DNA of 64,000 nt from Acidimicrobiaceae bacterium (GTDB lineage Bacteria; Actinomycetota; Acidimicrobiia; Acidimicrobiales; JAUTXP01). The stretch is from the NCBI GenBank assembly GCA_030837965.1, contig JAUTXP010000025.1:1-64000 (forward strand), given 5' to 3'. A model generated the notes under the pieces. It was not told the DNA's origin and searched no databases. It worked only from the letters and a program-made list of their open reading frames with translations. The position numbers and the translations under genes are program-made. Positions 5,536-63,414 of the stretch are shown piece by piece (the first letter of the stretch is position 1; the number at the start of each line of letters is the position of its first letter).

Positions 5536-5582
5536 CCCCCGAACTTTTCCACAGCACCTGCTGCTGTGGAAAAGTTCGGGGG
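5536..5582. repeat. Family A palindrome copy 1 (convergent junction)
   Basis: The core at 5544-5574 has arms TTTTCCACAGCA and TGCTGTGGAAAA around loop CCTGC. Flanking CCCCCCGAAC and GTTCGGGGG extend the stem to 21 bp. It fills the gap between the kinase-like gene (stop at 5527-5529) and the convergent SDR gene, whose stop TCA at 5583-5585 begins just past the stem. Confidence 0.93.
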
Positions 5583-13651: not shown

Positions 13652-13682
13652 CTTTTCCACAGCAGCAGGTGCTGTGGAAAAG
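13652..13682. repeat. Family A palindrome copy 2 (convergent junction)
   Basis: Arms TTTTCCACAGCA and TGCTGTGGAAAA with loop GCAGG, the reverse orientation of copy 1. It lies between the convergent ends of the MDMPI-like gene (13589) and dnaE (13767). Confidence 0.93.
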
Positions 13683-17474: not shown

Positions 17475-19205
17475 ATGGCATTTGGGAGCCCGTTCCGAAA
17501 GGCCCGCTACCGGTCCCGGCTGGTGGCGGGCGTTCTGGCCGCCTCCCTGCCGGTCACGGCCCTGACCGTGGCCGTGCTCACCAGCAAGGCCTCCCGCGAG
17601 CTGACCCGCTCCACGACCGCCTTCCTCGCGGCCCGGGCCAAGCACGTGGCCGACGACATCGAGCTCGACATCGAGTCCCGCCGCCAGGACGTGGCCTTCG
17701 CCGCGTCCCGCCTGGCCCGGCTGCCGGCGCCCGAGGCGCCCGTGCTGCTGTCCGCGTTGATGCAGCAGCGGGGCGGGTTCGACGAGGTCGAGATGGTCGA
17801 CCTCAACGGCAAGGTGCTGGCCGCGGGCGACCCCGCGGGCGCCTTCACCGCCCCGCCCAGCGACTGGTTCCGCCGGGCCGTGTCGGGCGCTGACAGCATC
17901 AGCCCGGTCTACCTGGACGAGGGAGCCCGCGACGTGCGGTGGGTCTTCGCCGCCGCAGTGGCCGGCCCCACGGGCCTGCCCGTGGCCGTGGTGCTGGCCG
18001 ACGTCCAGGCGGGCCACCTCTCGACGCAGTTGGCCCACGCCGAGTTCGCCCGCACGGCCGAGCTGCAACTGGTGGACGGGGACGGCAGGCTGATCCTGCG
18101 CCAGACCAACACCCGCACGCAGCGGCTGGTGCGCACCGACGCCGACCTGCTGGCGAGCGGCTCTCTGACGACCGTCCTCAACACGGCCGCGGCCGCGGCC
18201 GCCCCCCACGGAACGGGCACCATCCGCTACCGCGAAGTCAGCGGCCGCCACGCCTATGGCGGCTATGCGCCCGTCCCCTCCGTGGGGTGGGGCCTGGTCG
18301 TGAAGGAGGACGTGTCCGAGGCCCTGAGCGAGGTCGACCAGCAGCGCAGGCTGGGCGGGCTGCTGGTGGCCGCGGGCGCGGTGGTGCTGGCCCTGTTCGC
18401 CTACTTCTTCGCCCGACGAGAGGTGCGGTTCCTGCGCGGCATCGTGTCCGAGAGCAGGGCGGCGAGCGAGGAGGTGACGGCCAACGCGGCGGACATGTCG
18501 AGCGCGTCCGAGCAGTTGGCGTCGACCACGTTGGAGCAGACGGGCACGGTCACGGAGACGTCGGCGACCATGGAGGAGCTGGCCCGCTCGTCAACCGCCA
18601 TCGCCGCCACCGTGCAGCAGGTCGCGGCCCAGGCGGGCGAGACGCGCGACAGCCTGGAGGAGGCGGCGCGCCACATCGAGGCCTCGTCGGAGCGCACGCT
18701 CGCGCTGTCGGAGCGGGTCGGCCAGATCACCGGCATCCTCGACCTCATCAACGAGCTGGCCGACCAGACCAACCTGCTGGCCGTGAACGCGGCCATCGAG
18801 GCGGCCCGGGCAGGCGAGGCCGGGCGGGGCTTCTCGGTGGTGGCCGACGAGGTGCGCAGGCTGGCCGAGCGGTCCAAGGCGTCGTCGGCCGACATCGCCG
18901 CCATCATCGCCTCGGCCCAGGAGGAGTCGGCGGGCACGGTGTCGGCCATGGAGACGGGCGCCCGGCGCATGGCCCACGGGATGCGGCTGCTGGAGCAGGT
19001 GGCCGACGGCACGGCCCAGGTCAGCCTCAACACCCAGCAGCAGGGCCAGGCCACCCAACAGGTCGTGGAGGCCATGGACCAGCTCACGGACTCGAGCCGT
19101 CAGGTCGCCACCACGGCCCAGCAGATTGCGGCGTCGGCGGGCACGCTGGCCGCCCTCGCCTCCCAACTGGAGCAGGCGGCGGCCGCGGCGTCGGCCCGGT
19201 TCTAG
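17475..19205 (+). CDS. Methyl-accepting chemotaxis protein without HAMP domain
   Basis: A 576-residue transmembrane chemoreceptor. Residues about 15-38 form the first membrane helix, about 40-290 an extracellular dCache-like sensor ([46 protein letters not shown]), and about 296-313 the second membrane helix. The cytoplasmic coiled coil follows almost at once ([21 protein letters not shown]), leaving no room for a 50-residue HAMP domain. The conserved hairpin tip is [20 protein letters not shown] at about 428-448. There is no C-terminal CheR-tether pentapeptide. GGAGGA at 17461 supports the ATG at 17475. It heads the chemosensory operon; the ligand is unknown. Confidence 0.93.
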
Positions 19206-19223
19206 GCCGGTAGGCGGGTCGCC

Positions 19224-19562
19224 GTGCCCGAGAGGGCGTTGCTGGTTGGCGATGTGGCCGTGGCCTTGCGGGCTGTTCGGTCGGTGCTGCGCGCGCCCGA
19301 GCTGACCCCGGTGCCCACCGCGCCCGCGGTGGTGCTGGGCCTGGCCAACGTGCGCGGCCAGGTGGTGCCCGTGCTCGACGGCGGCCTGCTGTTGGCCACG
19401 GACGGGCGAGCGCCCGCCGCGCTGGGCGAGGCGGCCTACGTCGTCGTCGTCGACACCGCGGCGGGGCCGTTGGGCTTGGCCGTGTCGGCCATGCCCGTCC
19501 CGGCCGACGTGGCCGTGGACGACCCCCGCCTGGTCGACCCCGATTCCCTGGTGGACCGATGA
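19224..19562 (+). CDS. cheW: Chemotaxis coupling protein CheW (short)
   Basis: The 112-residue protein, with a GTG start, is a CheW coupling domain but shorter than the usual 140-160. The core GLANVRGQVVPVLD is clear at about residues 39-52, followed by AAYVVVVDTAAGPLGLAVSAM. The missing length is mostly at the N-terminus and the last strand. It should link the receptor to CheA at the inner membrane face. Its TGA overlaps the ATG of cheA (ATGA at 19559-19562). Confidence 0.88.
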   Translation: MPERALLVGDVAVALRAVRSVLRAPELTPVPTAPAVVLGLANVRGQVVPVLDGGLLLATDGRAPAALGEAAYVVVVDTAAGPLGLAVSAMPVPADVAVDDPRLVDPDSLVDR

Positions 19563-21520
19563 GCGCGTTCCCGCCCGAGGTGGTGCAGCTCTTCGTGGAC
19601 GAGGCCGAGACCAGGTTGGCCCGGCTGGCCGACGAGCTGTTGCGGCTCGAGGACGCAGGCCCAGTCCAGGCCGACCTGGTGGATTCGGTCTTCAGGGACG
19701 CCCACACGCTCAAGGGCACGGCCGGGATGATGGGCTACTCCGGCTTCGCCCAAGTGGCCCACCACATGGAGGACCTGCTGCACCAGGTGCGGGAGGGGAC
19801 CCTGGCCCCCGGGCCCGCGCTGGTCGACGGGCTACTGGCCGGGGTGGACGGGATGCGGCGCCACTTGCACGACATGGTGGCCGGGCCGGTGGACGAGTCG
19901 GTGTGGGCCGAGGTGCAGGCGCGGGTCGTGGCCGCGGGCGAGCACGCCGCGGGGGAGGGTCCGATCGAAGTGCCCCCGCCCGTCGCCGCCGCAGCCCTGG
20001 TGATGCCGGCGGCGGCAGTAGCAGACGTTGCGGTGGCGCGAGTGCCGGTGGCCCGCATGGACGCCATCGACCGGCTGGCGGGCGAGGCAGGCGTGTCGCA
20101 CACCCGGCTGGTCGGCGACCTGGCCGAAGCGCTGGGCCCAGGGGCGACCCTGCCTCGCGAGGCCCAACGGCTCGGGCATGTCCTGGCCGAGTTGCGGGCC
20201 CGCACGACCGAGGCCCGCATGGTGCCGGTGGCCACCGTGCTCGAGCCCGTGCGCAGGGCCGTTCGCGACATCGCTCGAAGCCAGGGCAAGGTCGTGCGCT
20301 TCGAGGCCGAGGGCGAGGAGACCGAGTTGGACCGGGCCGTGCTCGACCGGCTCGCCGACGCCGTCGGGCACTTGGTGCGCAACGCGGTCGATCACGGCGT
20401 GGAGCCGCCCGCCGAACGGGTGGCCGCTGGCAAGTCGGCCCAGGCCGTGGTGCGGGTCACGGCCCGCCAACAAGGCCGCGAGGTCGTGGTCGCGGTGGCC
20501 GACGACGGACGTGGCATCGACCCGGCCTTGGTCATGGAGGCCGCGGGCGAGTCGGACATGGACCAGGCCGATGTGATGGAGCGGCTGTTCCAGCCCGGGT
20601 TCTCCACCGCCTCCGAGGTGACCGAGCTGTCCGGGCGGGGTGTGGGCCTGGACGCGGTGCGGTCCACGCTGGCGTCGGTCAGAGGGGGGGTCGAGGTGCG
20701 CAGCGAGCCCGGCTACGGGACCACGTTCGTGTTGCGGGTCCCGCTCACTGTCGCGGCCGTGCCCTGCGTGATCGTGCGCTGCGCAGGCAGGTCATACGCG
20801 TTGGCTCTGTCGGTGGTGGCCGCCACCCGGCTGCCCGATCCGGGCGACGTGGCCTTGGCCGACGTGCTCGGGCTTCGGGCCGAGGTCCGTCCGAGCGCGG
20901 CGGTCGTCGTGGAAGCGGGTGGTCGGACACGGGCCTTCGCGGTGGAGGAGTTGGTGGCCCAGCGCGACGTGGTGGTCGAGAGCGTGGGCGCCCTGCCCTC
21001 CGTTCCCGTGGTCGCGGGCGCCGCCGTGCAGGGCGACGGAACCGTGCTCATCGTCCTCGACGGCGCCGCCCTCCTCGACCATCCCATCTTTTCCACAGCA
21101 CCTGCTGCTGTGGAAAAGATGGAGGGGCGGGCGGGCGAGGGGGCGGGGCGGCGGGTGCTGGTGGTGGACGACGCCGCCGTGGTGCGCGAGGTGCAGGTCG
21201 CCGCGTTGCGCAGGGCGGGCTACGAGGTGCAGGCCGCGGCCGACGGGGCCGAGGCGTTGGCCGTGCTGCGGCGGTGGCCCGCCGACCTGGCCCTGGTCGA
21301 CATCGAGATGCCGGTGATGGACGGGCTGGCCCTCACTCAGGCGCTGCGCGCCGACCCGGCGTTGCGGGGGACGGCCGTGCTGATCTTCACGTCGTTGGGG
21401 TCAGAAGCCGACCGCAGGCGGGGCATGGAGGCCGGGGCCGACGGCTACATGGTCAAGGCCACGTACACGCCGGACGCGCTGTTGGAGGCAATCGCCCGGC
21501 TGCTCGGCGAGGACCGATGA
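19559..21520 (+). CDS. cheA: Hybrid chemosensory histidine kinase CheA-REC with in-frame palindrome
   Basis: A 653-residue hybrid kinase. The P1/Hpt domain has the phospho-acceptor His49 in DAHTLKGTAG. Residues about 160-240 give the dimerisation helices. The ATPase has the N box (HLVRNAVDHG near 272), G1 (DDGRGID near 315) and G2 (GRGVGLDAV near 360). A CheW-like P5 domain spans about 398-507. A receiver domain at about 531-650 has the phospho-acceptor Asp581 (LVDIEMP). No separate P2 domain is evident. The P5-REC linker is partly encoded by family A palindrome copy 3, giving IFSTAPAAVEKME at about 509-521. The gene overlaps cheW and cheB by 4 nt each. It should phosphorylate its own REC, CheB and the GGDEF regulator. 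Confidence 0.94.
   Translation: MSAFPPEVVQLFVDEAETRLARLADELLRLEDAGPVQADLVDSVFRDAHTLKGTAGMMGYSGFAQVAHHMEDLLHQVREGTLAPGPALVDGLLAGVDGMRRHLHDMVAGPVDESVWAEVQARVVAAGEHAAGEGPIEVPPPVAAAALVMPAAAVADVAVARVPVARMDAIDRLAGEAGVSHTRLVGDLAEALGPGATLPREAQRLGHVLAELRARTTEARMVPVATVLEPVRRAVRDIARSQGKVVRFEAEGEETELDRAVLDRLADAVGHLVRNAVDHGVEPPAERVAAGKSAQAVVRVTARQQGREVVVAVADDGRGIDPALVMEAAGESDMDQADVMERLFQPGFSTASEVTELSGRGVGLDAVRSTLASVRGGVEVRSEPGYGTTFVLRVPLTVAAVPCVIVRCAGRSYALALSVVAATRLPDPGDVALADVLGLRAEVRPSAAVVVEAGGRTRAFAVEELVAQRDVVVESVGALPSVPVVAGAAVQGDGTVLIVLDGAALLDHPIFSTAPAAVEKMEGRAGEGAGRRVLVVDDAAVVREVQVAALRRAGYEVQAAADGAEALAVLRRWPADLALVDIEMPVMDGLALTQALRADPALRGTAVLIFTSLGSEADRRRGMEAGADGYMVKATYTPDALLEAIARLLGEDR
21084..21122. 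repeat. Family A palindrome copy 3, in frame inside cheA
   Basis: Core at 21088-21118, arms TTTTCCACAGCA and TGCTGTGGAAAA, loop CCTGC; flanks CCAT/ATGG extend the stem to 17 bp. It is read through as FSTAPAAVEKME in the linker between the CheW-like and receiver domains. Confidence 0.93.
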
Positions 21521-22593
21521 GCGGGCGGGCTGAGAGCACTGCGAGAGGCGCCGCCAACGCGGGGGCAGGCAGAGCGGGTGCGGGCAAGCGCATGCCCGTA
21601 GTGGTCGTGGAGGGCAACAAGACCCAGAGGGCCCTGCTGCGGCGGGTGCTCGAGGCCGAAGGCGACATCGAGGTGGTGGGCGAGGCCACGAACGGGGCCG
21701 AGGCCGTCGACGTCGTGCGCCGCACCCGGCCCAAGGCGGTCACCCTCGACCTTCAGATCGAGGGAGGCGGCATCGAGGCCATCGCCGCCCTCATGGCCGC
21801 TCGGCCGACCCCCATCCTCGTGCTGTCGGTGGCGGTGCAAGGCGTGTGGTCGACCCGGGCCGTAGACGCGCTGGCCGCGGGCGCGGCCGACGTGCTGCCC
21901 AAGCCCCCGCGCTGGGACAAGACGGCCGAGGCCACGGTGCGCGACCGGGTCCGGGCCATGGCCCGAGTACGGGTCCGGCCCACGCCCAGCGCGCCCGTCC
22001 GCACCCCGCCCGCGCCTGTCGAGCGGGGTGCCAGGCTCGTGGCCCTCGCCGCCTCCACCGGCGGGCCCGCGGCCTTGGCCCACGTGCTGGCCGGCCTGGC
22101 CGGAGTCAGCGCGCCGGTGCTCGTGGTCCAGCACCTGCACCCCGACTTCATGGCCGGTTTCGTGACCTGGCTGGGCCACGCGTCGGCCATCCCGGTCAAG
22201 GCGGCCCGGGCCGGTGAGCGGCTCAAGGCCGGGACCGCGTATGTCGCTCCCGGCCACGTTCATCTGCGCGTCGGGCCGGGCCCGTCGGCCGTGCTCGATC
22301 CCCGGCCCGAAGCCATCCACCGGCCCTCGGCCGACGAGCTGTTCAGGTCCGTGGCCGCGCAGGCGGGGGCGGGCGCGGTGGGAGTGTTGCTGACCGGGAT
22401 GGGCTCGGACGGGGCCGCGGGCCTGTTGGCCATCCGCCAGGCGGGCGGGACGACGTTGGCCCAGGACGAGTCGACCTCGGCCGTGTTCGGCATGCCCCAG
22501 GCCGCGGTCAAGGCGGGCGCCGCGGCCCAGGTGCTGCCCCTCGACGAGCTGGCCGCAGCCGTGCTCGCGGCGCTGGCCGCCCCGGTCCGGTGA
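21517..22593 (+). CDS. cheB: Chemotaxis response regulator / protein-glutamate methylesterase CheB
   Basis: A 358-residue CheB. The N-terminal receiver domain keeps the phospho-acceptor Asp near residue 78 (VTLDLQIEGGG) and the KP Lys (VLPKPPRWD), but the acidic pair is VEGN instead of the usual DD, so phosphorylation may be weak. The C-terminal methylesterase has the catalytic Ser in ASTGGP near 179, the His in VQHLHPDF near 205, and the Asp in GMGSDGA near 298. It demethylates glutamates on the receptor, reversing CheR. The first 25 residues are a low-complexity Ala/Gly/Arg extension. The gene overlaps cheA (ATGA) and cheR (GTGA). Confidence 0.93.
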   Translation: MSGRAESTARGAANAGAGRAGAGKRMPVVVVEGNKTQRALLRRVLEAEGDIEVVGEATNGAEAVDVVRRTRPKAVTLDLQIEGGGIEAIAALMAARPTPILVLSVAVQGVWSTRAVDALAAGAADVLPKPPRWDKTAEATVRDRVRAMARVRVRPTPSAPVRTPPAPVERGARLVALAASTGGPAALAHVLAGLAGVSAPVLVVQHLHPDFMAGFVTWLGHASAIPVKAARAGERLKAGTAYVAPGHVHLRVGPGPSAVLDPRPEAIHRPSADELFRSVAAQAGAGAVGVLLTGMGSDGAAGLLAIRQAGGTTLAQDESTSAVFGMPQAAVKAGAAAQVLPLDELAAAVLAALAAPVR

Positions 22594-23603
22594 CACCCGC
22601 GGTATCGGCAGCGGTCGCGGACCGCATGCGAGACGTGGGGCTCAAGGCAGACGTGACCGGGACCAGGCTGCTGCGGGCCGCGTCGGACGTGGCCGCCGAG
22701 CGGGGCCTGACCGTCGACGCCCTGCGGGGGCCGGGCCTCATCGACGCCGTGATCGAGCGGCTCTTGATCCACGAGTCGTGGTTCTTCCGCGACCCAGCCC
22801 AGTTCGCGGCGTTGACCGCAGAGATGCTGCCCACCCTCCCCCGCCCCGTGCACGTGTGGAGCGTGGGCTGTGGCCAGGGCCAAGAGGCGTGGAGCGTGGC
22901 CATGGCGCTGGCCGAGTCGATCGGGGCGGACGGCTGGGCGGTCACGGCCACCGACCTGTCCGGGCGGGCCCTGGCCGCCGCCGACCGAGGCATCTACAAC
23001 ACGGCGCAGTTGCGGGGCCTCTCCGACGAGCGCAGGACCCGCTTCCTGGAGCAGGTGGGGGCGGACGAATGGACGATTGTGCGCTCGATTCGCCCCTTGG
23101 TGTCGTTTGTCCAACATAACGTCACCGCTCGAGCCCGGCCTGTCCCGGCCGCGTCGTGCCAGGTCGTGTTGTGCCGCAACGTCTTGATGTACCTGCACGA
23201 CGAGGGGGTGGCCGCCGCCCTCGCCTCGCTGGGACAGGCCATGACCATGGGGGGATGGCTGATGCTGGGGACGGCCGAGTCGCTCTGGGGAGTGACCGAC
23301 GCGTTTGAAGTGGTCCGCGTGGGGGAGGCCTACGCCTACCGCCAAGCGGGTGGGTCGCCTGCGGTCGAAGGGCGTGTTGCGGCGCTGCCGTCGGCCGATG
23401 CCCTCGTGGCCCAGGGCGCGTCGGCCGCGTCGGCCGGTCGCCACGACGAGGCCGCCACTGCCTTTCGACAGGCCGCCTATCTCGACCCCGACCGGGCCGA
23501 CGCGCATGCAGGCCTGGCCGCCGCCCTCGAAGCAGTGGGCGACACGCGGGGCGCGGCGCGGGCCCGGGGCGCGGCCCGTCGTCTGCGAGGGCACGGCCGA
23601 TGA
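22590..23603 (+). CDS. cheR: Chemotaxis methyltransferase CheR with C-terminal TPR
   Basis: The 337-residue protein, with a GTG start, is a SAM-dependent receptor methyltransferase. ESWFFRDPAQF, WSVGCGQGQEAWSVAM (the SAM-binding GxGxG region near residues 92-107), VTATDLSG and VLCRNVLMYL are all typical CheR motifs. Residues about 270-335 add a TPR-like helical pair (ASAGRHDEAATAFRQAAYLDPDRADAHAGLA), as in WspC-type CheR proteins that work on non-flagellar receptors. It methylates glutamates of the operon's MCP. Stop and start codons overlap with the neighbours on both sides. Confidence 0.94.
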   Translation: MTPAVSAAVADRMRDVGLKADVTGTRLLRAASDVAAERGLTVDALRGPGLIDAVIERLLIHESWFFRDPAQFAALTAEMLPTLPRPVHVWSVGCGQGQEAWSVAMALAESIGADGWAVTATDLSGRALAAADRGIYNTAQLRGLSDERRTRFLEQVGADEWTIVRSIRPLVSFVQHNVTARARPVPAASCQVVLCRNVLMYLHDEGVAAALASLGQAMTMGGWLMLGTAESLWGVTDAFEVVRVGEAYAYRQAGGSPAVEGRVAALPSADALVAQGASAASAGRHDEAATAFRQAAYLDPDRADAHAGLAAALEAVGDTRGAARARGAARRLRGHGR

Positions 23604-24565
23604 GCGCGCTGGTACTGGTGGCCGAGGACTCGGCCACCGTGCGGGCCGCCCTGCGCATGCACCTGGAGGCCCACGGCTATTCGGTGGTGGAGGCCGAGGA
23701 TGGCGAGGAGGCGTTGGCCGTGGCCGGGCGGGAGCGGCCCGACGTCATCCTGCTCGACGTGGAGATGCCCGTGCTCGACGGCCACGCCGTGCTGGGCGCG
23801 CTGCAAGAGAACAGCGAGCTTTGCGATGTTCCTGTCGTCTTCCTCACCGGCCGGCGCGACGCCGATGACATGGTGGCCTGCCTGGGCGCGGGCGCCCACG
23901 ACTACTTGGTCAAGCCCTTCGAGGCCGCCGAGCTGGTGGCCAGGGTGTCGGCCGCGGTGAGGGTCAAGCACTTGCAGGACGAGCTGCGCAGGCGCAACGA
24001 GGAGCTCGACTTGGTGTCGCGGATCGACTCGCTCACCCGGCTGTGGAACCGGCGCCACTTGGAAGAGCGGCTCGACGCGTTGTGCAGCGGGGCGCGCAGG
24101 CATGGGTTCGAGGTCTCGGTGCTGGTGATCGACCTGGACCACTTCAAGCGGGTCAACGACTCCCACGGCCACGCGGTGGGCGACGCCGTGCTGCGGGCCG
24201 TGGCGAGCTGCGTCTTCGGCCACATGCGCGCCGAGGACGTGGCCAGCCGGTGGGGTGGCGAGGAGTTCGTGGTGATGGTCCCCTTCACCGGCCCGGCCGG
24301 GTCGGTGGCCGTGGGCGAGCGCATCAGGGCCGGGATCGAGACCCTGCGGATCGACGTGTCCGAGGTGGTGGCGTCAGGTTCCGCGGCTGCGTCGGCTCTC
24401 ACCGGTTCGGCTTGCCCTGCCGGCGAGGTGCGGGTGACGGCGTCGATCGGGGTCTGCGCCGCGGCCGGGGGTGAGGCCGTGCCCGCCGCCCTGCTGGCCG
24501 CAGCCGACCGGGCCCTGTACGAGGCCAAGGCCGCGGGCCGCAACCACGTCGTCCTGGCCCACTGA
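23600..24565 (+). CDS. Response regulator with GGDEF domain (diguanylate cyclase, WspR-like)
   Basis: A 321-residue output protein. The N-terminal receiver has the phospho-acceptor Asp near residue 53 (ILLDVEMPVLDG). A short coiled coil (VKHLQDELRRRNEELDL) leads to a GGDEF domain with active-site GGEEF near 219-223 and an RAED inhibitory (I-) site five residues before it. It should make c-di-GMP when phosphorylated by CheA and be inhibited by its product. Its place at the end of the coupled operon makes it the likely output, as WspR is in the Wsp system. An insertion SGSAAASALTGSACPAGE lies in the last third. Confidence 0.93.
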   Translation: MSALVLVAEDSATVRAALRMHLEAHGYSVVEAEDGEEALAVAGRERPDVILLDVEMPVLDGHAVLGALQENSELCDVPVVFLTGRRDADDMVACLGAGAHDYLVKPFEAAELVARVSAAVRVKHLQDELRRRNEELDLVSRIDSLTRLWNRRHLEERLDALCSGARRHGFEVSVLVIDLDHFKRVNDSHGHAVGDAVLRAVASCVFGHMRAEDVASRWGGEEFVVMVPFTGPAGSVAVGERIRAGIETLRIDVSEVVASGSAAASALTGSACPAGEVRVTASIGVCAAAGGEAVPAALLAAADRALYEAKAAGRNHVVLAH

Positions 24566-24613
24566 GATCGACGGCCGACCGCCGACCGCCAGCCGCCGAG
24601 CACTCCCCCAGCC

Positions 24614-24679
24614 GCTTTCCCCTTCTTGTCAGCCTCAGTTCGGGTTCCAGCCGTGGCGACCTGACAAGAAGGGGAAAGC
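24614..24679. terminator. Long hairpin at convergent junction, not family A
   Basis: A perfect 19-bp inverted repeat, GCTTTCCCCTTCTTGTCAG at 24614-24632 and its complement at 24661-24679, with a 28-nt loop. It lies between the convergent REC-GGDEF and proteasome-activator genes. There is no T tract after either arm, so it is not a textbook intrinsic terminator, but its position suggests a bidirectional 3'-end structure. Confidence 0.6.
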
Positions 24680-24698
24680 ACCACGGGCGGGGCGCCGG

Positions 24699-25253
24699 TT
24701 AGAGGTAGCCGGGCGGGCGCGGCGGCTGGTCCTGGCCTCCCGCGGGCAGGGCCCGCTGGCGCATCTCGTCCAGTTGCGCCCGGGCCGCCATCTGCTGGGC
24801 GAACAGGGTGGCCTGGATGCCGTGGAACAGCCCCTCCAGCCACCCCACCAACTGGGCGTGGGCCACGCGCAGCTCGGCCTCGCTGGGCGGGGCCCCCTCC
24901 TCGAAGGGCATGGCCAGTCGGTCGAGCTCGTCGCGCAGGTCGGGCGACAGGACGCGGGCCAGCTCCTGCACCGACGTCTCGTAGATCTCGCGCAGCCGGG
25001 TCCTGCTGGCCTCGTCCAACGGGGCTTGGCGGACCTCGTCGAGCAACTGCTTGATCATCGACCCGATGCGCATGACCTTGGCGGGCTGCTCGACCGTCTC
25101 GCGCTGGGCCTCGTCACCGCCGTCCTCGTCAGCGCCGACCTCGGTGTCGCCCACGCCGCCCACGCCGCCCTCGGGGCCGATCCCCTCGGCGTCTCCAGTG
25201 CGGTCGCCCACGATCAACAGGCGCGGCTGGTCCTCGGTCTCGTCCATGGGCAT
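24699..25253 (-). CDS. bpa: Bacterial proteasome activator (Bpa/PafE)
   Basis: A 184-residue protein. The acidic N-terminal third is disordered. It is followed by the helical core VMRIGSMIKQLLDEVRQAPLD, LREIYETSVQELARVLSPDLRDEL, and AELRVAHAQLVGWLEGLFHGIQATLFAQQM typical of Bpa/PafE. It ends in GYL, close to the GQYL tail of mycobacterial PafE that docks on the 20S core. Bpa forms a dodecameric ring and opens the proteasome gate for ATP-independent degradation. GGAG 8 nt before the second ATG (25247) suggests translation may start two codons later than given. Proteasome core genes are not in the window. Confidence 0.85.
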   Translation of the reverse strand: MPMDETEDQPRLLIVGDRTGDAEGIGPEGGVGGVGDTEVGADEDGGDEAQRETVEQPAKVMRIGSMIKQLLDEVRQAPLDEASRTRLREIYETSVQELARVLSPDLRDELDRLAMPFEEGAPPSEAELRVAHAQLVGWLEGLFHGIQATLFAQQMAARAQLDEMRQRALPAGGQDQPPRPPGYL

Positions 25254-25272
25254 GGCTCCATACTTCCCGAGT

Positions 25273-26379
25273 TCAGGGCCGAGCGGCCAACAGGGGCACC
25301 AAGGCCTCAGCCGAGGTCAGCGACCCGTGCCTGCACACCAGAGCGGTTTGGCCGCTGTCGGCCGGGTCGACGAAGGCGACGGGCGCGAACGCGACGATGG
25401 CCACGTCGCCCACCCGCTCGGCCAGGTCAGGGGCCAGGGGGCCGCCCAGCCAGCCCAGGTCGGCCACCTCGTCGCGGGTGTGGACCCAGGCCACATGACC
25501 GTGGGCGTCGAGGGCACGGGCCGCGACCTGCTCGGTCGTGCCCGGCCGCACGTGCAGCCAGCGGAACCGGGCCTCGCCCGAGAGCATCTCCACGTCGGCG
25601 CTCACGGCCTCGTCCACCGTCACCAGCGCGTTGCCCACCTGGACCTGGCCGTGGTCGGCGGTCACGACCAGCGTGGCGCCGGGCGGCAGGGCGTCGAGCA
25701 CGTCGGACACGAGGCGGTCGACTGCGACCAGCTCGGCGTCGTAGTGGGGCCCGAAGCCGTGGCTGTGGGCGATGCTGTCGATGCCGTCGTAATAGGCGTA
25801 GACGAAGGGCTCGTCGTCGCGCAGCAGCCTGGCCACCTCGACGGCGATGGTGGACGGCACCCGCCAGCCCACGATTCGCACCCCGCCCAGGTGGGCCAGC
25901 GTGAACCCGGTGGACACGAAGTGGGCCTTGGTGATGACCGGCGGCCTGATGCCCGCGAACGGGGGCAGGCGCTGGAAGTCGCCGGGCGGGACCGTCTGTC
26001 TGGCGTCGCCCGCTCCGGTGGACCAGCGCAAGACGTTGAGCACCTCGCCGTGACCCACAGCGATGCGGTAGCCGAGGATGCCGTGGTCGGCGGGCGGGCG
26101 GCCGGTGGCGATGGAGGTCAGGGCCGTGGCTGTGGTGCTGGGCGCCACCGAGGTGATGGGCCCGCCCTGCATGGCGGCCAGGGTCGGGGCCAGGTGGCAG
26201 CGCTCCTGCAACTGCTCCCAGCCCAGCCCGTCGAGCACGAGGAGCACGACTTGGGGCGCCCGCCACGCCACGGCGGGCAGCCAGTCCGGGGCCGCGCCCG
26301 GCGCGTCGAGCAAGGCGGGCACGATGGACGAGATGCAGGCGCCGCCGTAGTCGGGGACGACCGGGTCCGGGGTGTCCAC
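25273..26379 (-). CDS. Alkaline-phosphatase superfamily / nucleotide pyrophosphatase-type phosphodiesterase
   Basis: The 368-residue protein matches the type I phosphodiesterase/nucleotide pyrophosphatase group: VVLLVLDGLGWEQL (first metal Asp), the likely nucleophile Thr/Ser in APSTTATALTSIATGRPPADHG, DGIDSIAHSHGFG, and VVTADHGQV (metal Asp-His). No signal peptide is evident, so it may act in the cytoplasm. The substrate is unknown. I chose GTG at 26379 (MDTPDPVVPDYGG) because the upstream in-frame stretch is low-complexity and begins with TTG; the start is uncertain. It is 19 bp upstream of bpa on the same strand. Confidence 0.78.
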   Translation of the reverse strand: MDTPDPVVPDYGGACISSIVPALLDAPGAAPDWLPAVAWRAPQVVLLVLDGLGWEQLQERCHLAPTLAAMQGGPITSVAPSTTATALTSIATGRPPADHGILGYRIAVGHGEVLNVLRWSTGAGDARQTVPPGDFQRLPPFAGIRPPVITKAHFVSTGFTLAHLGGVRIVGWRVPSTIAVEVARLLRDDEPFVYAYYDGIDSIAHSHGFGPHYDAELVAVDRLVSDVLDALPPGATLVVTADHGQVQVGNALVTVDEAVSADVEMLSGEARFRWLHVRPGTTEQVAARALDAHGHVAWVHTRDEVADLGWLGGPLAPDLAERVGDVAIVAFAPVAFVDPADSGQTALVCRHGSLTSAEALVPLLAARP

Positions 26380-26541
26380 CGACCCGACGTTACCGGCGCC
26401 AGGCTGGGCTTCCGTGCCAAGCGAGCCGCGGCCCCGGCCCGCGACCCCGGGAGGCGAGGACCGCGGGGCCGGGGCCCGGCGAAGGTGCTCTTGGGGAGAT
26501 GGTGCCAACGGCGGGCGGTGACTCGCTATAGCCCGATCGTG

Positions 26542-26928
26542 CTATTTGCGACCGGCCTTGACCGCGGCCTGCTGCAAGGCCTCGACCAAAGGCCCCACTT
26601 CGCCGGATTTGAGCAGCAGGGGCACGCCCAACTTGTCCATCTCGTCGCGCACGTGCTCGCCCGCCACGGCCGAGTACGCCACCAGGCCGATGTCGGGCAG
26701 GTCCCGGGCCAGCGCCTCAATGGCCTGGAAGCCGTTCATGCGCGGCATCAACAGGTCCATGATCACGGCGTCCGGCTGGAGGGCGTGGCATTGCTCGATG
26801 GCCTCCTGGCCGTCGGACGCGGTGCCGACCACGGCCACGTCCGGCCTGCCCTCCAACTGCACGCGGAGCAGCAGCATCACGTCCGGCTCATCGTCCACAA
26901 TCAGGACGCGCAGCGGCTCCGACCCCAT
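26542..26928 (-). CDS. Single-domain response regulator
   Basis: A 128-residue stand-alone receiver domain. The acidic pair is in LIVDDEPD, the phospho-acceptor Asp in VIMDLLMPRMNG, and the conserved Lys in LLLKSGEV. It has no output domain, so it should act by protein contact, like CheY or Spo0F. TAGCGT on the minus strand at 26936-26941 lies 7 nt before the ATG, suggesting a leaderless transcript. It is divergent from the Rrf2 gene across 57 bp. Which kinase phosphorylates it cannot be told from here; the CheA at 19559 is one candidate. Confidence 0.88.
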   Translation of the reverse strand: MGSEPLRVLIVDDEPDVMLLLRVQLEGRPDVAVVGTASDGQEAIEQCHALQPDAVIMDLLMPRMNGFQAIEALARDLPDIGLVAYSAVAGEHVRDEMDKLGVPLLLKSGEVGPLVEALQQAAVKAGRK

Positions 26929-26935
26929 GGCCCAC

Positions 26936-26979
26936 ACGCTACCGGTGGGAGACGCCGGCATCCGGGCGGGCCGTAGCAT
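26936..26979. promoter_or_regulatory. Divergent leaderless promoters, response regulator / Rrf2
   Basis: TAGCGT (minus strand, 26936-26941) lies 7 nt before the response-regulator ATG, and TAGCAT (plus strand, 26974-26979) lies 6 nt before the Rrf2 GTG. Both fit the TANNNT -10 of actinobacterial leaderless genes. The 57-bp gap could also hold an Rrf2 operator. Confidence 0.5.
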
Positions 26980-26985
26980 GGGGAC

Positions 26986-27435
26986 GTGAAGGTCTCGACC
27001 CGTGGCGACTACGCGAGCCGGGCCCTGTTGTCCCTCGCGCTCCACGCCGACGACACGGGCCCCACGTCTGTGCGTGACATCGCCGAGCGCACCGGGCTCC
27101 CCCAGCCCTACCTCGAGCAGATCCTGCTGGCCCTCAAGGGCGCCGGACTGGTGCGGTCCAAACGGGGCGTGGGCGGCGGCTACGTGCTGGCCAGGGACCC
27201 GGCCGAGATCACGCTGGGCCAGATCGTGAGCGCGGTCGACGGGCCCATCGTGGCGGGGGACTTCGGCGAGCCCCACCAGAACGGCGCGTGCGACCACGAA
27301 GGCCAGTGCGTGCTGTTGTCGGTGTGGGCGGGCGTGGGCCACCACATGCGCGACCACCTCGACTCGTTCACCTTGGCCGACATGGTGTCGCGGGCCCGAG
27401 GCAATTCCGCCGCCGTCTTCGAGCCCCTCACCTGA
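26986..27435 (+). CDS. Rrf2-family transcriptional regulator
   Basis: A 149-residue Rrf2 regulator with a GTG start. The winged helix is VSTRGDYASRALLSLA, SVRDIAERTGLPQPYLEQILLALKGAGLVRSKRGVGGGYVLAR. The C-terminal part contains CDHEGQC, two Cys where IscR/NsrR/RsrR members have three ligand residues, so Fe-S binding is possible but not certain (the His residues nearby could take part). Such proteins sense Fe-S status, NO or redox state. Its stop codon is 9 bp before family A palindrome copy 4. Confidence 0.88.
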   Translation: MKVSTRGDYASRALLSLALHADDTGPTSVRDIAERTGLPQPYLEQILLALKGAGLVRSKRGVGGGYVLARDPAEITLGQIVSAVDGPIVAGDFGEPHQNGACDHEGQCVLLSVWAGVGHHMRDHLDSFTLADMVSRARGNSAAVFEPLT

Positions 27436-27443
27436 TATCCCAA

Positions 27444-27474
27444 CTTTTCCACAGCAGCAGGTGCTGTGGAAAAG
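27444..27474. repeat. Family A palindrome copy 4 (convergent junction)
   Basis: Arms TTTTCCACAGCA and TGCTGTGGAAAA, loop GCAGG. It occupies nearly all of the 39-bp gap between rrf2 (stop 27433-27435) and the convergent membrane-protein gene, whose stop (TCA on plus, 27475-27477) abuts the element. Confidence 0.93.
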
Positions 27475-28284
27475 TCAGACGGGGCGGGTGTGGGGGTCGC
27501 CCGCCCGCACCGTCTCCTCCGGCCGCAGGCCGCGCAGGCGGGCCAGGCCGGAGGGGCGGCGGGCGACGATGTCGACCAGGCGCACGTCGGGCCGCGAGGC
27601 CAGGGCCCGCAGATCCGACACCGAGCCGGTCGCCACGAACCCGAACACCACCGGCTTGCCCGGGTCGAGACCGGCCAGCAGCTTGCCCAACCGGTCGATG
27701 TCCGATTGGAACTGGTCCTTGAACGCCTTGTCGTCGGTGGTGTCGAACATCGACTGGAGCTGCCTGCGCTCCTCCTCGGCGTCCGTCTTGGCCCGGGCCG
27801 CCCACGCCGTCAACGAGCCATCCACCACCTCGGGCTCGCCCCCCGCGGGCGCGACCAGCAGGGCGTCGGGGTGGACCGAGGTGAAGGCCGACTTGAACTT
27901 GGCCTCGGTGGCGTACTCCCGAAGCGACACCACCGCGACCCACCGCCCCCGCGCCTCCTCCAAGGCCCGGCGCCGGCCCTCCGAGTAGGTCGCCACGTCG
28001 GTGCCCGCCAGCGGCCCAGTCCCCGTTCCCACCAAGGCCGCGGCGGGCGAGATGGTGGACGGGTCGTCGGCGCTGTCGTCATCGGAGCGGCTGAGGGCCA
28101 CAGCCACGCCCGCGGCCAGGACGAAGGCGATGAAGGCGGCCAGGGCCAACAGGACCATGCGCCGAGCCGCGGCCTCGCCGATGTCGCCTTGATCGCCGAG
28201 ATCGCCTTCCCCGCCGACGGCGTCGCCTTCCGGCACCGGCACCGGCGCGGCATCCGGGTCAGGAGAGTCGAGCACGGACCTCAT
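27475..28284 (-). CDS. Membrane-anchored hypothetical protein
   Basis: A 269-residue protein with an acidic N-terminus (about 40 residues), one membrane helix at about 43-65 (VLLALAAFIAFVLAAGVAVAL), and a 200-residue domain predicted to lie outside the cell, with a helical middle (AARAKTDAEEERRQLQSMFDTTDDKAFKDQF). The segment VFGFVATGSVSDLRALASRPDVRLVDIVAR looks like a Rossmann-type strand order. I recognise no family. The start overlaps the end of the pseudouridine synthase gene by 26 nt, so both are probably co-transcribed. Its stop abuts palindrome copy 4. Confidence 0.6.
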   Translation of the reverse strand: MRSVLDSPDPDAAPVPVPEGDAVGGEGDLGDQGDIGEAAARRMVLLALAAFIAFVLAAGVAVALSRSDDDSADDPSTISPAAALVGTGTGPLAGTDVATYSEGRRRALEEARGRWVAVVSLREYATEAKFKSAFTSVHPDALLVAPAGGEPEVVDGSLTAWAARAKTDAEEERRQLQSMFDTTDDKAFKDQFQSDIDRLGKLLAGLDPGKPVVFGFVATGSVSDLRALASRPDVRLVDIVARRPSGLARLRGLRPEETVRAGDPHTRPV

Positions 28285-29170
28285 CCAAGTCGGCGGGCAG
28301 CGGCGAGGACCAACTCACCCGCTCCCCCGTCCCCGGGTGGTCGAAGGACAGTTCGTGAGCGTGCAAGAAGGGCCGGGGCACGGTCAGTCCCGCCCGCACC
28401 CCGCCGTACCGGGCGTCGCCGATCACCGGGTGCCCGATGGCAGCCATGTGCACGCGGATCTGATGCGTGCGACCCGTCTCCAGCCTGCACTCGACCAGCG
28501 TGGCCGCCACCGGCTCGGTGAATCGGGCTTGCACGACGTAGCGGGTGCGGGCCTCACGGCCGCGCGAGCTGACGGCCATGCGCGTGGGGTCGCCCTCGCC
28601 TCGGCCGATGGGCGCGTCGACCAGGCCCGCGGGCGACTCCACCAGCCCGGCCACCAACCCGAGGTAGACACGCGCCACGGTCCGGGCCTGCAACTGCCCC
28701 ACCAACGACTCGTAGGCCCGGGCGCTGCGGGCCACCACCAGCAGCCCGGACGTGCCCTTGTCCAGCCGGTGCACGATGCCGGGCCGCTCTGGGTCGACAC
28801 CGACGCCGGCCAGGTCGGGGTACTGGGCCAGCAGCCCGTTCACCAGCGTGCCTGCCCGGTTCCCCGAGCCCGGGTGCACGACCAGGCCCGCGGGCTTGTC
28901 CACCACGATCACGTCGTCGTCGGCGTAGACGACGGGCGCGTGCACCGATGCGTCGGCCGCGGCCACGGCCACCACCGCCTCGGGCACGTCCACTTCGAGC
29001 ACGTCCCCCTCGGCCACCCGCCTGCTGCGCGTCGACACCGTCGTGCCCGACAGGCGCACCCCGCCCGACTCCACCAGCCCGGCCACCTCGGACCGGGGCA
29101 GCCCGGTCAGCAGGGCCACCGCTCGGTCGACCCGCTCGCCCGCCAACGCGGCGGGCACCGTCTCACGCAC
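28259..29170 (-). CDS. rluD: Pseudouridine synthase, RluA/RluD family
   Basis: The 303-residue protein, with a GTG start, has an S4 RNA-binding domain at the N-terminus (ERVDRAVALLTGLPRSEVAGLVESGGVRL) and the RluA catalytic domain. HRLDKGTSGLLVVA near residue 131-144 contains the catalytic Asp, and GRTHQIRVHMAAIGHPVIGD is the second conserved block. It isomerises uridines in 23S rRNA; RluD itself modifies helix 69. The lspA-rluD order is common in bacteria. The lspA stop is 10 bp upstream, indicating an operon. Confidence 0.93.
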   Translation of the reverse strand: MRETVPAALAGERVDRAVALLTGLPRSEVAGLVESGGVRLSGTTVSTRSRRVAEGDVLEVDVPEAVVAVAAADASVHAPVVYADDDVIVVDKPAGLVVHPGSGNRAGTLVNGLLAQYPDLAGVGVDPERPGIVHRLDKGTSGLLVVARSARAYESLVGQLQARTVARVYLGLVAGLVESPAGLVDAPIGRGEGDPTRMAVSSRGREARTRYVVQARFTEPVAATLVECRLETGRTHQIRVHMAAIGHPVIGDARYGGVRAGLTVPRPFLHAHELSFDHPGTGERVSWSSPLPADLDEVRARLS

Positions 29171-29180
29171 GGACCCGGCC

Positions 29181-29687
29181 TCAGGCCCTGTCGTGGCGCG
29201 ACGACAGCACCAGCAGAGCCGCGCCCACGGTGATGCCCATGTCGGCCACGTTGAAGATGGGCCACCACTGGAGGTCGATGAAGTCGATGACGGCCCCGCC
29301 GTTGTCGCGCAGGAGCCGATCGGCCAGGTTGCCCACCGCGCCGCCCACCAACAGGCCCAGCGCCACCGCGGCCACCAGCCCGCCCGTGGCCAGCCGACCC
29401 AGTCCGACCAGCAGCACGACCATGACGACGCCGAGGACCAAGACGATGGGCGCCACGCCCCGGCCCAGGCCGAACGCGGCCCCCGAGTTGTACGACAGGT
29501 TGAGTCGAAGGGTCCACCAGAGATGGACGGGGCCGTCGGCCAGATGCCGGACGGCCAGGGTCTTCGTGAGCTGGTCGAGCACCACCACCACGACGGCCGC
29601 CGCGCCCGCGGCCACCAGGCGGGCGGGCAGGCGGCGCCGGGAGGCGGCTACCTCCGAGACAGGCCCCCGCTCTTGCACGCCACGCAC
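29181..29687 (-). CDS. lspA: Lipoprotein signal peptidase
   Basis: A 168-residue membrane aspartyl protease with four membrane helices. The catalytic Asp pair is in GGAVGNLADRL and FNVADMGITVG, and NLSYNSGAAFGL is the conserved extracellular loop. It cleaves the signal peptide of prolipoproteins after lipidation by Lgt. The start is GTG at 29687 or 29678; either overlaps the 3' end of the upstream DksA/TraR-like gene by 31-40 nt, which suggests coupling. Confidence 0.93.
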   Translation of the reverse strand: MRGVQERGPVSEVAASRRRLPARLVAAGAAAVVVVVLDQLTKTLAVRHLADGPVHLWWTLRLNLSYNSGAAFGLGRGVAPIVLVLGVVMVVLLVGLGRLATGGLVAAVALGLLVGGAVGNLADRLLRDNGGAVIDFIDLQWWPIFNVADMGITVGAALLVLSSRHDRA

Positions 29688-34124: not shown

Positions 34125-34208
34125 CCGCATTTGGGCGCACTTGACCACCGCGCCATCCGCATTTGGGCGCACTTGACCACCGTGGCGGTGGGGAACTGCG
34201 CCCAAATG
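34125..34208. repeat. Family 2 palindrome with a 26-bp direct repeat
   Basis: A 26-bp unit containing CATTTGGGCGCACTTGACC is perfectly repeated at 34125-34150 and 34157-34182. CATTTGGGCGCA at 34160-34171 pairs with TGCGCCCAAATG at 34197-34208, with an inner stem CCACCG/CGGTGG, giving a 49-nt imperfect hairpin just after ileS. The ends match the palindrome at 57775-57821. Confidence 0.85.
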
Positions 34209-34238: not shown

Positions 34239-34281
34239 CTGGAGGACATGGCCTGCGAAAACCGCAGGCCATGTCCTCCAG
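34239..34281. terminator. Perfect 19-bp hairpin at convergent junction
   Basis: CTGGAGGACATGGCCTGCG at 34239-34257 pairs perfectly with 34263-34281 around loop AAAAC. It lies between convergent ileS and the repeat-domain gene. GAAAAGAAAGG follows, with no T tract, so its terminator role is inferred from position. Confidence 0.65.
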
Positions 34282-40514: not shown

Positions 40515-41407
40515 GCCGCCCCCTCGAAGCCGACCAGCCGCAGCTCGGGCTCGAGCCGCACGCCCATCCGTTCCTGCACCAGGCGCCGCACCTCCTGGAT
40601 CAGCGCGTACACGTCGTCGGCCGAGCCGCCCTCGTCCGCCTGGAAGAAGTTCGCATGCTTGGGCGACACATGGGCGGATCCCACCCGATGGCCCTTGAGC
40701 CCGGCCCCGTCGATGAGCCTCCCGGCCGAGTCGCCGGGCGGGTTGGTGAACACCGAGCCCGCGTTCTGTCCGCCGGGCTGATGCTCCCTGCGCCAGCGCA
40801 CGATCTCGCCGATCTCGGCCTCGGACGCGTGGCGATCGCCCGGCGCCAACGCGAACTCGGCCCACACCACCGCGTGGGTCGACGCCACCGTCGAGTGCCT
40901 GTAGGAGTACGCGAGCCGGTCGACGTCGAACTCCCCGTCCTCGCCGCCGGCCAAGTCCACGAAGCAGAAGCGGCGCACGACCTGGCTCATGTCCGAGCCG
41001 TGCCCGCCTGCGTTCATGCGCACCGCACCGCCCACCGAGCCGGGCACGCCGACGGCCCACTCCAACCCGGTGAGCCCGGCCGCGGCCGTTCGCCGGGCCA
41101 ACACGGGCAACGACACCGCCGCGCCGGCCCGCACCCGCGTGCCTTCCAGGTCGATGCCGCCGAAGCCGTCGCCGAGCGTGACCACCAAGCCGGGGAAGCC
41201 CCGGTCGGCAACCAACAGGTTCGACCCCTTCCCCACCACCAACACGGGGAGGCCCGACCCTGCCAGCGCGTCGCGGGCCAGCCGAAGGTCGGCCTCGTCT
41301 TCGGCATGGAAGAGGTAGGCCGCAGGCCCGCCCACCCGGTAGGTGGTCAGCGGGCCGATGGGCACATGGCGGCCAAGCCGGTCGCCGAGCAGGGAGTCAA
41401 TCGCCAT
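40511..41407 (-). CDS. murB: UDP-N-acetylenolpyruvoylglucosamine reductase
   Basis: A 298-residue FAD enzyme. FAD-binding segments PLTTYRVGGPAAYL, VLVVGKGSNLLVADRGFPGLV and GVPGSVGGAVRMNAGGHGSDM are clear; the C-terminal block SVFTNPPGDSAGRLIDGAGLKG carries the catalytic Ser/Glu region. It reduces UDP-GlcNAc-enolpyruvate to UDP-MurNAc. The ATG overlaps the end of murC by 11 nt. Confidence 0.95.
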   Translation of the reverse strand: MAIDSLLGDRLGRHVPIGPLTTYRVGGPAAYLFHAEDEADLRLARDALAGSGLPVLVVGKGSNLLVADRGFPGLVVTLGDGFGGIDLEGTRVRAGAAVSLPVLARRTAAAGLTGLEWAVGVPGSVGGAVRMNAGGHGSDMSQVVRRFCFVDLAGGEDGEFDVDRLAYSYRHSTVASTHAVVWAEFALAPGDRHASEAEIGEIVRWRREHQPGGQNAGSVFTNPPGDSAGRLIDGAGLKGHRVGSAHVSPKHANFFQADEGGSADDVYALIQEVRRLVQERMGVRLEPELRLVGFEGAA

Positions 41408-42824
41408 CGGCGAGCAGTTCGTCGGGCAGGGCGGTCAGGTCGCCCGCGCCCAAGGTGAGGCAGAGGTCGCCGGGTCGCAGCACCCGGCGCAGGTAGGCGG
41501 CCCACTCCCTGCGGGCAGGCAGATACGCGACCTGGGTGGCCGGGTGGCCTTCGAGCACGGCGTCCACGATGAGCTTGCCGGAGACGCCCGGCCGAGGCGG
41601 CTCGTCGGCCGCGTAGACGTCGGTCACCACGAGCAGGTCGGCGTCCACGAAGACGTCGGCGAAGTCCCGCCACATGTCGGCCGTGCGCGAGTACCGATGG
41701 GGCTGGAACACGCACACGACCCGACGCCATCCGCCGCTCTTGGCTGCGGCCAACACCGCCCGCACCTTGCCCGGGTTGTGGGCGTAGTCGTCCACGAAGG
41801 TCACGCCGTCTCGCTCGCCCCTGAACTGGAAACGCCGAGCGACCCCGCCATAGCGGGCCAAGGCCCGAGCGGCGGCGTCGAAGGGAACGCCCAGCTCCAT
41901 GGCCATGGCCAGCGCGCCGCACGCGTTGTGGGCGTTGTGCAAGCCGGGCACGGGGAGGCGGACGTGGCCCAGCCGCTGGCCCTTTCGCCAGACGGTGAAC
42001 GACGCGCTGGACCGCCCCGACTCGCAGTCGCCCATGCGGTAGTCGGCCCCCTCCCCCATCCCATACGTCACCCCCTCCATCTTTTCCACAGCACCTGCTG
42101 CTGTGGAAAAGTCGAGGAGGGAGGCGGCGACGGGGTCGTCGGCGCACACGACCTTGGCGCCGGAGGCGTCGGCCACGAAGCGGGCGAAGGCGTCGCACAG
42201 GTGGGCGGCGTCGCCGAAGTAGTCGAGGTGGTCGGGCTCCACGCTGGTGACCACCACCGCCTCGGCCCCGAGTTCGAGGAAGGTGCCGTCGCTCTCGTCC
42301 GCCTCCACCACGAACCACTCGCCGTCGTCCCAAACCGCGCCGGTGCCGATCTCGTTGACGTCGCCGCCGATGATGAACGACGGGTGCCAGCCCGCCTCCA
42401 CCAGGATGAGGGCCAGCATCGACGACGTGGTGGTCTTGCCGTGCGTGCCGGACACGGCGACCGTGCGCCGGGTGGCGGCGATGGCGGCCAAGACCTCGGC
42501 CCTGCGCAGCACCGGCACGCCTCGACGGGCCGCCTCCTGCACCTCCACGTTGCCGCGCGGGATGGCCGTGGAGATGGCCAATGCGTCCACGTCGGCGGGA
42601 ACGTTGTCGGCCGCATGGCCCACCACGACGTGCACCCCGGCGGCGCGCAGGCGGGCCAAGCCGGGCGAGTCCTTGAGGTCGCTGCCCGACACCACGTGGC
42701 CCATGGCCGCCAGCACAGTGGCGATGGCGCTCATGCCCGCTCCGCCGATGGCCACGATGTGGACGCGCCGCGGGGTCGAGAGATCGAGCCCGGCAGGCTG
42801 AGCAGAGGCGTCACCGCCGGGCAT
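41397..42824 (-). CDS. murC: UDP-N-acetylmuramate-L-alanine ligase with in-frame palindrome
   Basis: A 475-residue Mur ligase. IGGAGMSAIATVLAAMGHVVSGSD is the UDP-binding N-terminus (read in parts), SGTHGKTTTSSML the ATP loop, EADESDGTFL the second motif and HNAHNACGALA the third. It adds L-Ala to UDP-MurNAc. Family A palindrome copy 5 is read in frame as FSTAAGAVEKME (residues 239-250), placed in the central domain between CADDPVAASLLD and VTYGMGEGADYR. That spot is a surface loop between beta strands in MurC structures, so the enzyme is probably active. The gene is tightly packed between murG and murB. Confidence 0.96.
   Translation of the reverse strand: MPGGDASAQPAGLDLSTPRRVHIVAIGGAGMSAIATVLAAMGHVVSGSDLKDSPGLARLRAAGVHVVVGHAADNVPADVDALAISTAIPRGNVEVQEAARRGVPVLRRAEVLAAIAATRRTVAVSGTHGKTTTSSMLALILVEAGWHPSFIIGGDVNEIGTGAVWDDGEWFVVEADESDGTFLELGAEAVVVTSVEPDHLDYFGDAAHLCDAFARFVADASGAKVVCADDPVAASLLDFSTAAGAVEKMEGVTYGMGEGADYRMGDCESGRSSASFTVWRKGQRLGHVRLPVPGLHNAHNACGALAMAMELGVPFDAAARALARYGGVARRFQFRGERDGVTFVDDYAHNPGKVRAVLAAAKSGGWRRVVCVFQPHRYSRTADMWRDFADVFVDADLLVVTDVYAADEPPRPGVSGKLIVDAVLEGHPATQVAYLPARREWAAYLRRVLRPGDLCLTLGAGDLTALPDELLADGD
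42081..42111. repeat. Family A palindrome copy 5, in frame inside murC
   Basis: Arms TTTTCCACAGCA and TGCTGTGGAAAA, loop CCTGC on the plus strand. On the coding (minus) strand it reads FSTAAGAVEKME and is followed by the flank GATGGAGGGGG, also seen beside copies 3 and 7. Confidence 0.93.
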
Positions 42825-53583: not shown

Positions 53584-53614
53584 CTTTTCCACAGCAACAG
53601 GTGCTGTGGAAAAG
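53584..53614. repeat. Family A palindrome copy 6
   Basis: Arms TTTTCCACAGCA and TGCTGTGGAAAA, loop ACAGG (one base different from GCAGG). It lies just downstream of the stop of the membrane-protein gene and before the intrinsic terminator. Confidence 0.92.
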
Positions 53615-63383: not shown

Positions 63384-63414
63384 CTTTTCCACAGCAGCAG
63401 GTGCTGTGGAAAAG
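63384..63414. repeat. Family A palindrome copy 7 (convergent junction)
   Basis: Arms TTTTCCACAGCA and TGCTGTGGAAAA, loop GCAGG, followed by GATGGAGGGGGTCAG. It fills the 42-bp gap between the transglutaminase gene (stop 63380-63382) and the convergent DUF3040 gene, whose stop TCA lies at 63425-63427. Confidence 0.93.

Follow-up and report, generated by a model that had tools for sequence, protein, structure and literature searches.

What places a perfect palindrome in frame inside the gene for a CheA-type histidine kinase, and why is the same palindrome read in the same frame in murC? In the 64-kb stretch of DNA analysed here (the window), positions 21084-21122 (CCATCTTTTCCACAGCACCTGCTGCTGTGGAAAAGATGG) pair perfectly into a hairpin whose arms are 17 nt and whose loop is 5 nt long. 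From this site and its counterpart in murC, the preliminary description had proposed that a palindrome was inserted exactly in the flexible linker between the CheW-like and receiver domains, and that the shared frame pointed to selection for a tolerated peptide or to a frame-specific origin.

Two in-frame copies of a palindromic core

All copies share a 31-nt core, CTTTTCCACAGCA-NNNNN-TGCTGTGGAAAAG, with 13-nt arms and a 5-nt loop, which is present in seven exact copies in the window (Table 1); in the CheA copy, stem pairing continues four pairs beyond it. The half-site TTTTCCACAG occurs 14 times in the window, compared with 0.00 expected from shuffles. The predicted hairpins are very stable (-21.6 to -43.3 kcal/mol, z -4 to -9), and no part of the window matches an Rfam family.

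Table 1. Core copies in the window and the two genes that contain one.
Feature	Position	Strand	Context
Core copy 1	5544..5574		convergent gene pair; stops 14 and 8 nt away
Core copy 2	13652..13682		convergent gene pair; stops 62 and 84 nt away
CheA-type histidine kinase with C-terminal receiver domain (CheA-REC)	19559..21520	+	653 aa; gene call; Pfam Hpt, HATPase_c, CheW, Response_reg
Core copy 3	21088..21118	+	in CheA-REC, in frame as FSTAPAAVEK; loop CCTGC on + strand
Core copy 4	27444..27474		convergent gene pair; stops 8 and 0 nt away
murC	41397..42755	-	452 aa
Core copy 5	42081..42111	-	in murC, in frame as FSTAAGAVEK; lies in a protein loop within Mur_ligase_M domain
Core copy 6	53584..53614		loop ACAGG; tandem context, 38 nt past stop of - strand gene
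Core copy 7	63384..63414		convergent gene pair; stops 1 and 10 nt away

The in-frame reading in CheA-REC is confirmed, its translation across the core being ...LLDHPIFSTAPAAVEKMEGRAGEG... (also given as IFSTAPAAVEKMEG). The placement in the linker holds as well, since the insert occupies residues 510-520, the CheW domain (aa 432-508) ends before it and the Response_reg domain (aa 533-645) starts after it. The murC copy shares the frame, as had been claimed, with the loop in the opposite orientation. In the comparison of CheA linkers recommended earlier, the core is absent from the orthologues, but the linker is too variable for the length of an insertion to be measured. The segment of MurC between DDPVAA-x-L and (V/T)TYG is about 6 residues long in thirty orthologues from the same order and 15 residues long here, counting the core; the net gain is 27 nt (45 nt replacing 18 nt) and is not a clean 31-nt insertion. 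Insertion is judged here from distant orthologues, the host genome being alone in its family among those sampled.

A repeat of gene ends

The core is present in 176-177 copies in the genome (3.55 Mb in 88 contigs, GC content ~70% in the fetched stretches). We placed 170 of them with their surroundings, leaving out about 7, using our own gene calls from a codon-usage model trained on the same genome. Among these, 63 lie between convergent, 72 between tandem and 11 between divergent genes, 19 are intragenic and 5 are at edges or overlapping, so that ~85% of the placed copies are extragenic. Intergenic gaps of 40 nt or more in unselected stretches (n=164; 83 tandem, 36 convergent and 45 divergent) served as the reference, against which convergent copies are in excess and divergent copies in deficit (chi2 P = 9e-7). 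On the 198 sides facing a gene 3' end, the stop codon is a median of 13 nt away, and no more than 25 nt away on 162 of them; on the 94 sides facing a gene start, the median is 52 nt. The view taken from the copies in the window had missed the main character of the element, a repeat of gene 3' ends with ~177 copies. The two closest of the placed copies are 667 bp apart, with no doublets or clusters, and single half-sites are almost absent. Several contigs start at or near a copy (C14, C17, C29 and C65 begin at one or within ~35 nt of it), so the repeat may break the assembly.

These locations would also suit a hairpin that acts at gene ends, as a bidirectional transcription terminator or a 3' mRNA stabiliser, and is selected at each site, the coding copies being by-products. 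Such a role would account for the sites 0-25 nt past stop codons and between convergent genes, for tandem copies hugging the end of the upstream gene, and for the high stability of the structure; the extragenic copies may have a terminator or RNA function. An intrinsic terminator is a GC-rich hairpin followed by a U-tract; the hairpin is present here, but no T-run follows it, no canonical terminator was called in window positions 18000-30000, and a terminator does not need an invariant sequence. In addition, left and right flanks do not covary (6.57 pairs of 12, against 6.80 +/- 0.10 for shuffled pairs) and, being no more complementary than shuffled pairs, indicate that the outer stem is not under selection. 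MurC is encoded by an essential gene, and it is difficult to imagine an efficient terminator in the middle of it, or in cheA. The missing U-tract, the flanks and the murC copy disfavour a gene-end function as what chiefly conserves the sequence, and we consider this explanation as a whole possible but rather improbable.

Other repeats were observed in the same genome. A second palindromic family, CTGGAGGACAT-(21 nt variable)-ATGTCCTCCAG, is found at window positions 34239-34281 and at L059:6845, L238:2859, L246:8151 and other sites, matching 23 times in about 0.9 Mb, usually 3' of a gene and never within one; unlike the 31-nt core, it has conserved ends and a variable middle. Two rarer families, CTTGTCAG...CTGACAAG and CATTTGGGCG...CGCCCAAATG, have 3 copies each in the stretches seen (window 24625-24668 and 34160-34208; L253:4254, L251:19852, L248:13022 and L068:10893). 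The window also contains 126-bp tandem repeats (42 codons; 746-1385) within the - strand gene 45-1520, and low-complexity direct repeats of the CTTGGCCGCC type that overlap the - strand genes 29648-30508 and 34305-35378, whose products, judged from the DNA, look like Lys/Ala-rich, histone-like tails.

Near-identity and flanks of the copies

The copies are about 99.8% identical and none is decayed: in 0.91 Mb scanned, the arms had no mismatch in 114 cores, one in 6, two in 1 and three to eight in none. Substitution rates are equal in arms (8/4420) and loop (1/850), and three discrete loop types occur (GCAGG 132, ACAGG 28 and GGGGG 9). Searches of 396 genomes of the order, 295 of the phylum and viral contigs returned no copy of the core. 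A looser pattern retrieved at least 56 stretches in a broad contig scan; among the matches listed, all were lone palindromes with unrelated loops, many of them resembling oriC box arrays. Plasmid and phage searches gave partial, chance-level matches only, and a literature search on the core sequence yielded nothing relevant apart from papers on DnaA boxes. Together, the near-identity, equal rates and discrete loops suggest a few sources that multiplied recently, and not old, separately selected sites, although the lack of decay could alternatively reflect strong constraint on every copy and on the whole 31 nt.

The flanks follow a short-range rule. AA, AT, GA or CG adjoins the core on 303 of 306 sides (in the window, for example, 21086-21087 and 21119-21120), followed by a C-rich tract on the left and a G-rich one on the right, and each side obeys the rule for dinucleotide and C-rich tract independently. 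Copies with GA on both sides are rarer than expected (1 vs 5.3), as are those with CG on both (0 vs 2.1). At positions -4 to -10, the C content of the flanks is 55-78%, compared with 40-54% at the majority of the first post-stop positions of element-free gene ends, which are thus fairly C-rich as well. This rule and the C/G-rich flanks are not accounted for by a simple insertion model and count against the explanation that we prefer below. Target-site duplications were not found, nor were flanking direct repeats in excess.

With respect to a mobilising enzyme, Y1_Tnp (PF01797) had no match at E<=0.001 in this 97.9% complete genome, while the control genomes matched, and a RAYT/Y1 transposase was rejected as the driver. 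An autonomous parent located between two copies was also rejected, as the N-termini of the genes lying between close pairs, read by eye, resemble those of ordinary housekeeping genes.

A rule obeyed on each side independently, together with invariant arms, the near absence of lone half-sites and the enrichment between convergent genes, would also suit a dyad site for a sequence-specific DNA-binding protein (nucleoid, topoisomerase or DnaA-like) under strong selection. Each arm indeed contains a DnaA-box-like 9-mer, TTTTCCACA, but the boxes at the genome's own oriC (dnaA region) are of the TTGTCCAC type, and the DnaA reading was rejected on this difference. The boxes of the core are moreover inverted and 11 bp apart, unlike the direct pairs 2-3 bp apart preferred by E. 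coli DnaA (PMC11317965). The asymmetric loop is also as invariant as the arms, with equal substitution rates after insertion, and we regard a selected dyad site as unlikely.

A single reading frame in coding copies

The preliminary description would have attributed the shared frame to chance if coding copies were spread evenly over the three frames. Instead, FSTA--AVEK is the frame of all 19 intragenic copies of the genome, whichever way the loop is oriented, with the codons TTT-TCC-ACA-GCA...GTG-GAA-AAG in every case (P about 2.6e-9, or 3^-18, under random frames). The other two frames encode LFHS--CCGK, which is cysteine-rich, and FPQ---LWK, which is hydrophobic and contains Trp. The core has no stop codon in any of the three frames, so openness alone is not the reason for this bias. 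Where a gene stops 0-40 nt before reaching a core, its extension would enter frames 0, 1 and 2 in 48, 74 and 62 cases, whereas read-through tails that stop soon after the core number 0, 0 and 13 (Fisher P = 1.8e-6). Therefore, gene ends of every frame meet the element, which is translated only in the FSTA frame; in genes that would read it in another frame, the stop always precedes the core. This is what would remain if the other two peptides were selected against, and purifying selection is the probable cause. Of the two origins initially proposed, the tolerated peptide now extends far beyond two copies, whereas these counts neither call for a frame-specific origin nor lend it support.

In ten genes, the called GTG start lies within the element (VEK..., again in the FSTA--AVEK frame; L060:3023, L075:10577, L082:6888, L108:3985, L263:6301 and five more). 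As most of the genes have later ATG or GTG codons, these starts were probably miscalled, although some genes may truly begin in the element.

The coding copies comprise 6 internal ones, in inter-domain linkers or loops, and 13 C-terminal tails. The internal hosts are the CheA linker, the MurC loop, NuoG, an FAD-binding/SdhA-type flavoprotein and two proteins without Pfam domains; in the four named proteins, Pfam domains flank the insert on both sides, as in NuoG, where it lies between Molybdopterin (282-660) and Molydop_binding (776-855), and in the flavoprotein, where it lies between FAD_binding_2 and the C-terminal domain. The tail hosts include RibH, MFS, RcpC, DUF1003, peptidase M23, TP_methylase, ferredoxin and desaturase proteins, and the insert is located past the last Pfam domain in those of RibH, DUF1003, RcpC, Peptidase_M23, TP_methylase and desaturase. 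The hosts are thus functionally unrelated, and what their sites share is being linkers or tails.

Could the frame have originated in the way the element spreads, or in selection for the peptide, and not in purging? The absence of any exception, even in the 13 tails, where most peptides might be tolerated, is what such an origin would produce. However, known insertion machineries do not sense frame, genes ending beside the element represent all three frames, and the hosts have unrelated functions, with the sites in linkers or tails, all of which makes this origin very improbable. An assembly or library artefact is practically negligible: palindromic linkers exist and some contigs start close to a copy, but a linker would neither follow stop codons nor keep one frame, and the copies have discrete loop types and real genes on both flanks.

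A probable young repeat, filtered by selection

Altogether, our results are best explained by a young, lineage-restricted, REP-like palindromic repeat whose coding insertions have been purged except in the FSTA--AVEK frame, to which we assign a probability of roughly 0.7. The exchange of 45 nt for 18 nt in MurC, the missing target-site duplications and the missing Y1_Tnp match weigh against it. The element would have reached ~177 sites in recent times, probably through an enzyme that copies and inserts the hairpin or dyad, and would have survived mostly past stop codons, either because it prefers such sites or because it is tolerated only there. Coding insertions would survive only when the gene's frame is kept and the core falls in the FSTA--AVEK frame, in a tail, an inter-domain linker or a surface loop, those in the LFHS--CCGK and FPQ---LWK frames being purged. 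Near-palindromy of the core means that the peptide is almost the same, and harmless, in either orientation. We infer that the element is mobile and has no essential role at most copies.

A more elaborate version, which we consider speculative and quite unlikely, would combine Y1/RAYT-independent spread, in which each arm is recognised separately (the dyad target rule without target duplication), with active favouring of FSTA--AVEK as a neutral or useful tag at tails and linkers. One 31-nt sequence would then serve as both gene-end punctuation and an inserted peptide module.

Under the preferred explanation of a young, purged repeat, this genome would offer a natural experiment on how selection filters mobile DNA in genes, with ~177 recent copies, three possible frames and one accepted (19/19), as well as a case of REP-like expansion without a detectable RAYT. 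It would also caution that C-terminal tails and linkers annotated in genomes of this kind can turn out to be recently inserted repeats.

Comparison with known repeat systems

The DNA uptake sequences (DUS) of Neisseria are conserved short sequences whose inverted pairs downstream of genes are used as terminators. The present element resembles them in forming inverted pairs of a conserved short sequence 3' of genes; in contrast, many DUS copies are single (DUS are treated in PMC2397512), and lone half-sites are almost absent here.

Bacterial MITEs (such as ERIC/RU, NEMIS and RUP) are small dispersed inverted repeats whose open frames can be fused in frame to genes (PMC2229807, PMC2759123). The element differs from them in that it has neither a target-site duplication nor a TIR-plus-interior structure, the whole unit being one hairpin. 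In-frame coding copies are known for enterobacterial repeats and for the Rickettsia palindromic elements, or RPEs (PMC2229807, PMC2759123), the latter being both intergenic and in frame inside conserved protein genes (PMC2229807). The 19 in-frame coding copies found here, such as those in CheA, MurC, NuoG and RibH, are a clear likeness to RPEs. Nevertheless, RPEs are 105-146 bp long, compared with the 31-nt core, and belong to an unrelated organism, and ~85% of the placed copies of this element are extragenic, so that length, host and location set the two apart.

The closest parallels are with the GTAG- and CGTC-tagged REPs of RAYT/REPIN systems, imperfect palindromes of 20-40 bp in high copy number located mainly 3' of genes in convergent or tandem arrangement, which is also true of this 31-nt element with its 176-177 copies. 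REPs are mostly found between convergent or tandem genes, most convergent ones less than 20 bp from both 3' ends, and some lie inside ORFs, often at their ends (PMC3733652). The element differs in lacking a GTAG/CGTC tag at the foot of the stem (AA, AT, GA or CG abut it, followed by C/G-rich sequence), in lacking a Y1/RAYT gene in its 97.9% complete genome, in lacking doublets and clusters, and in its single reading frame in genes; REPtrons can, however, be absent from REP-bearing species (PMC3733652). Given the missing tags, transposase and doublets, together with the absolute frame bias, we file the element not as a proven member of the class but as a variant that works like a REP.
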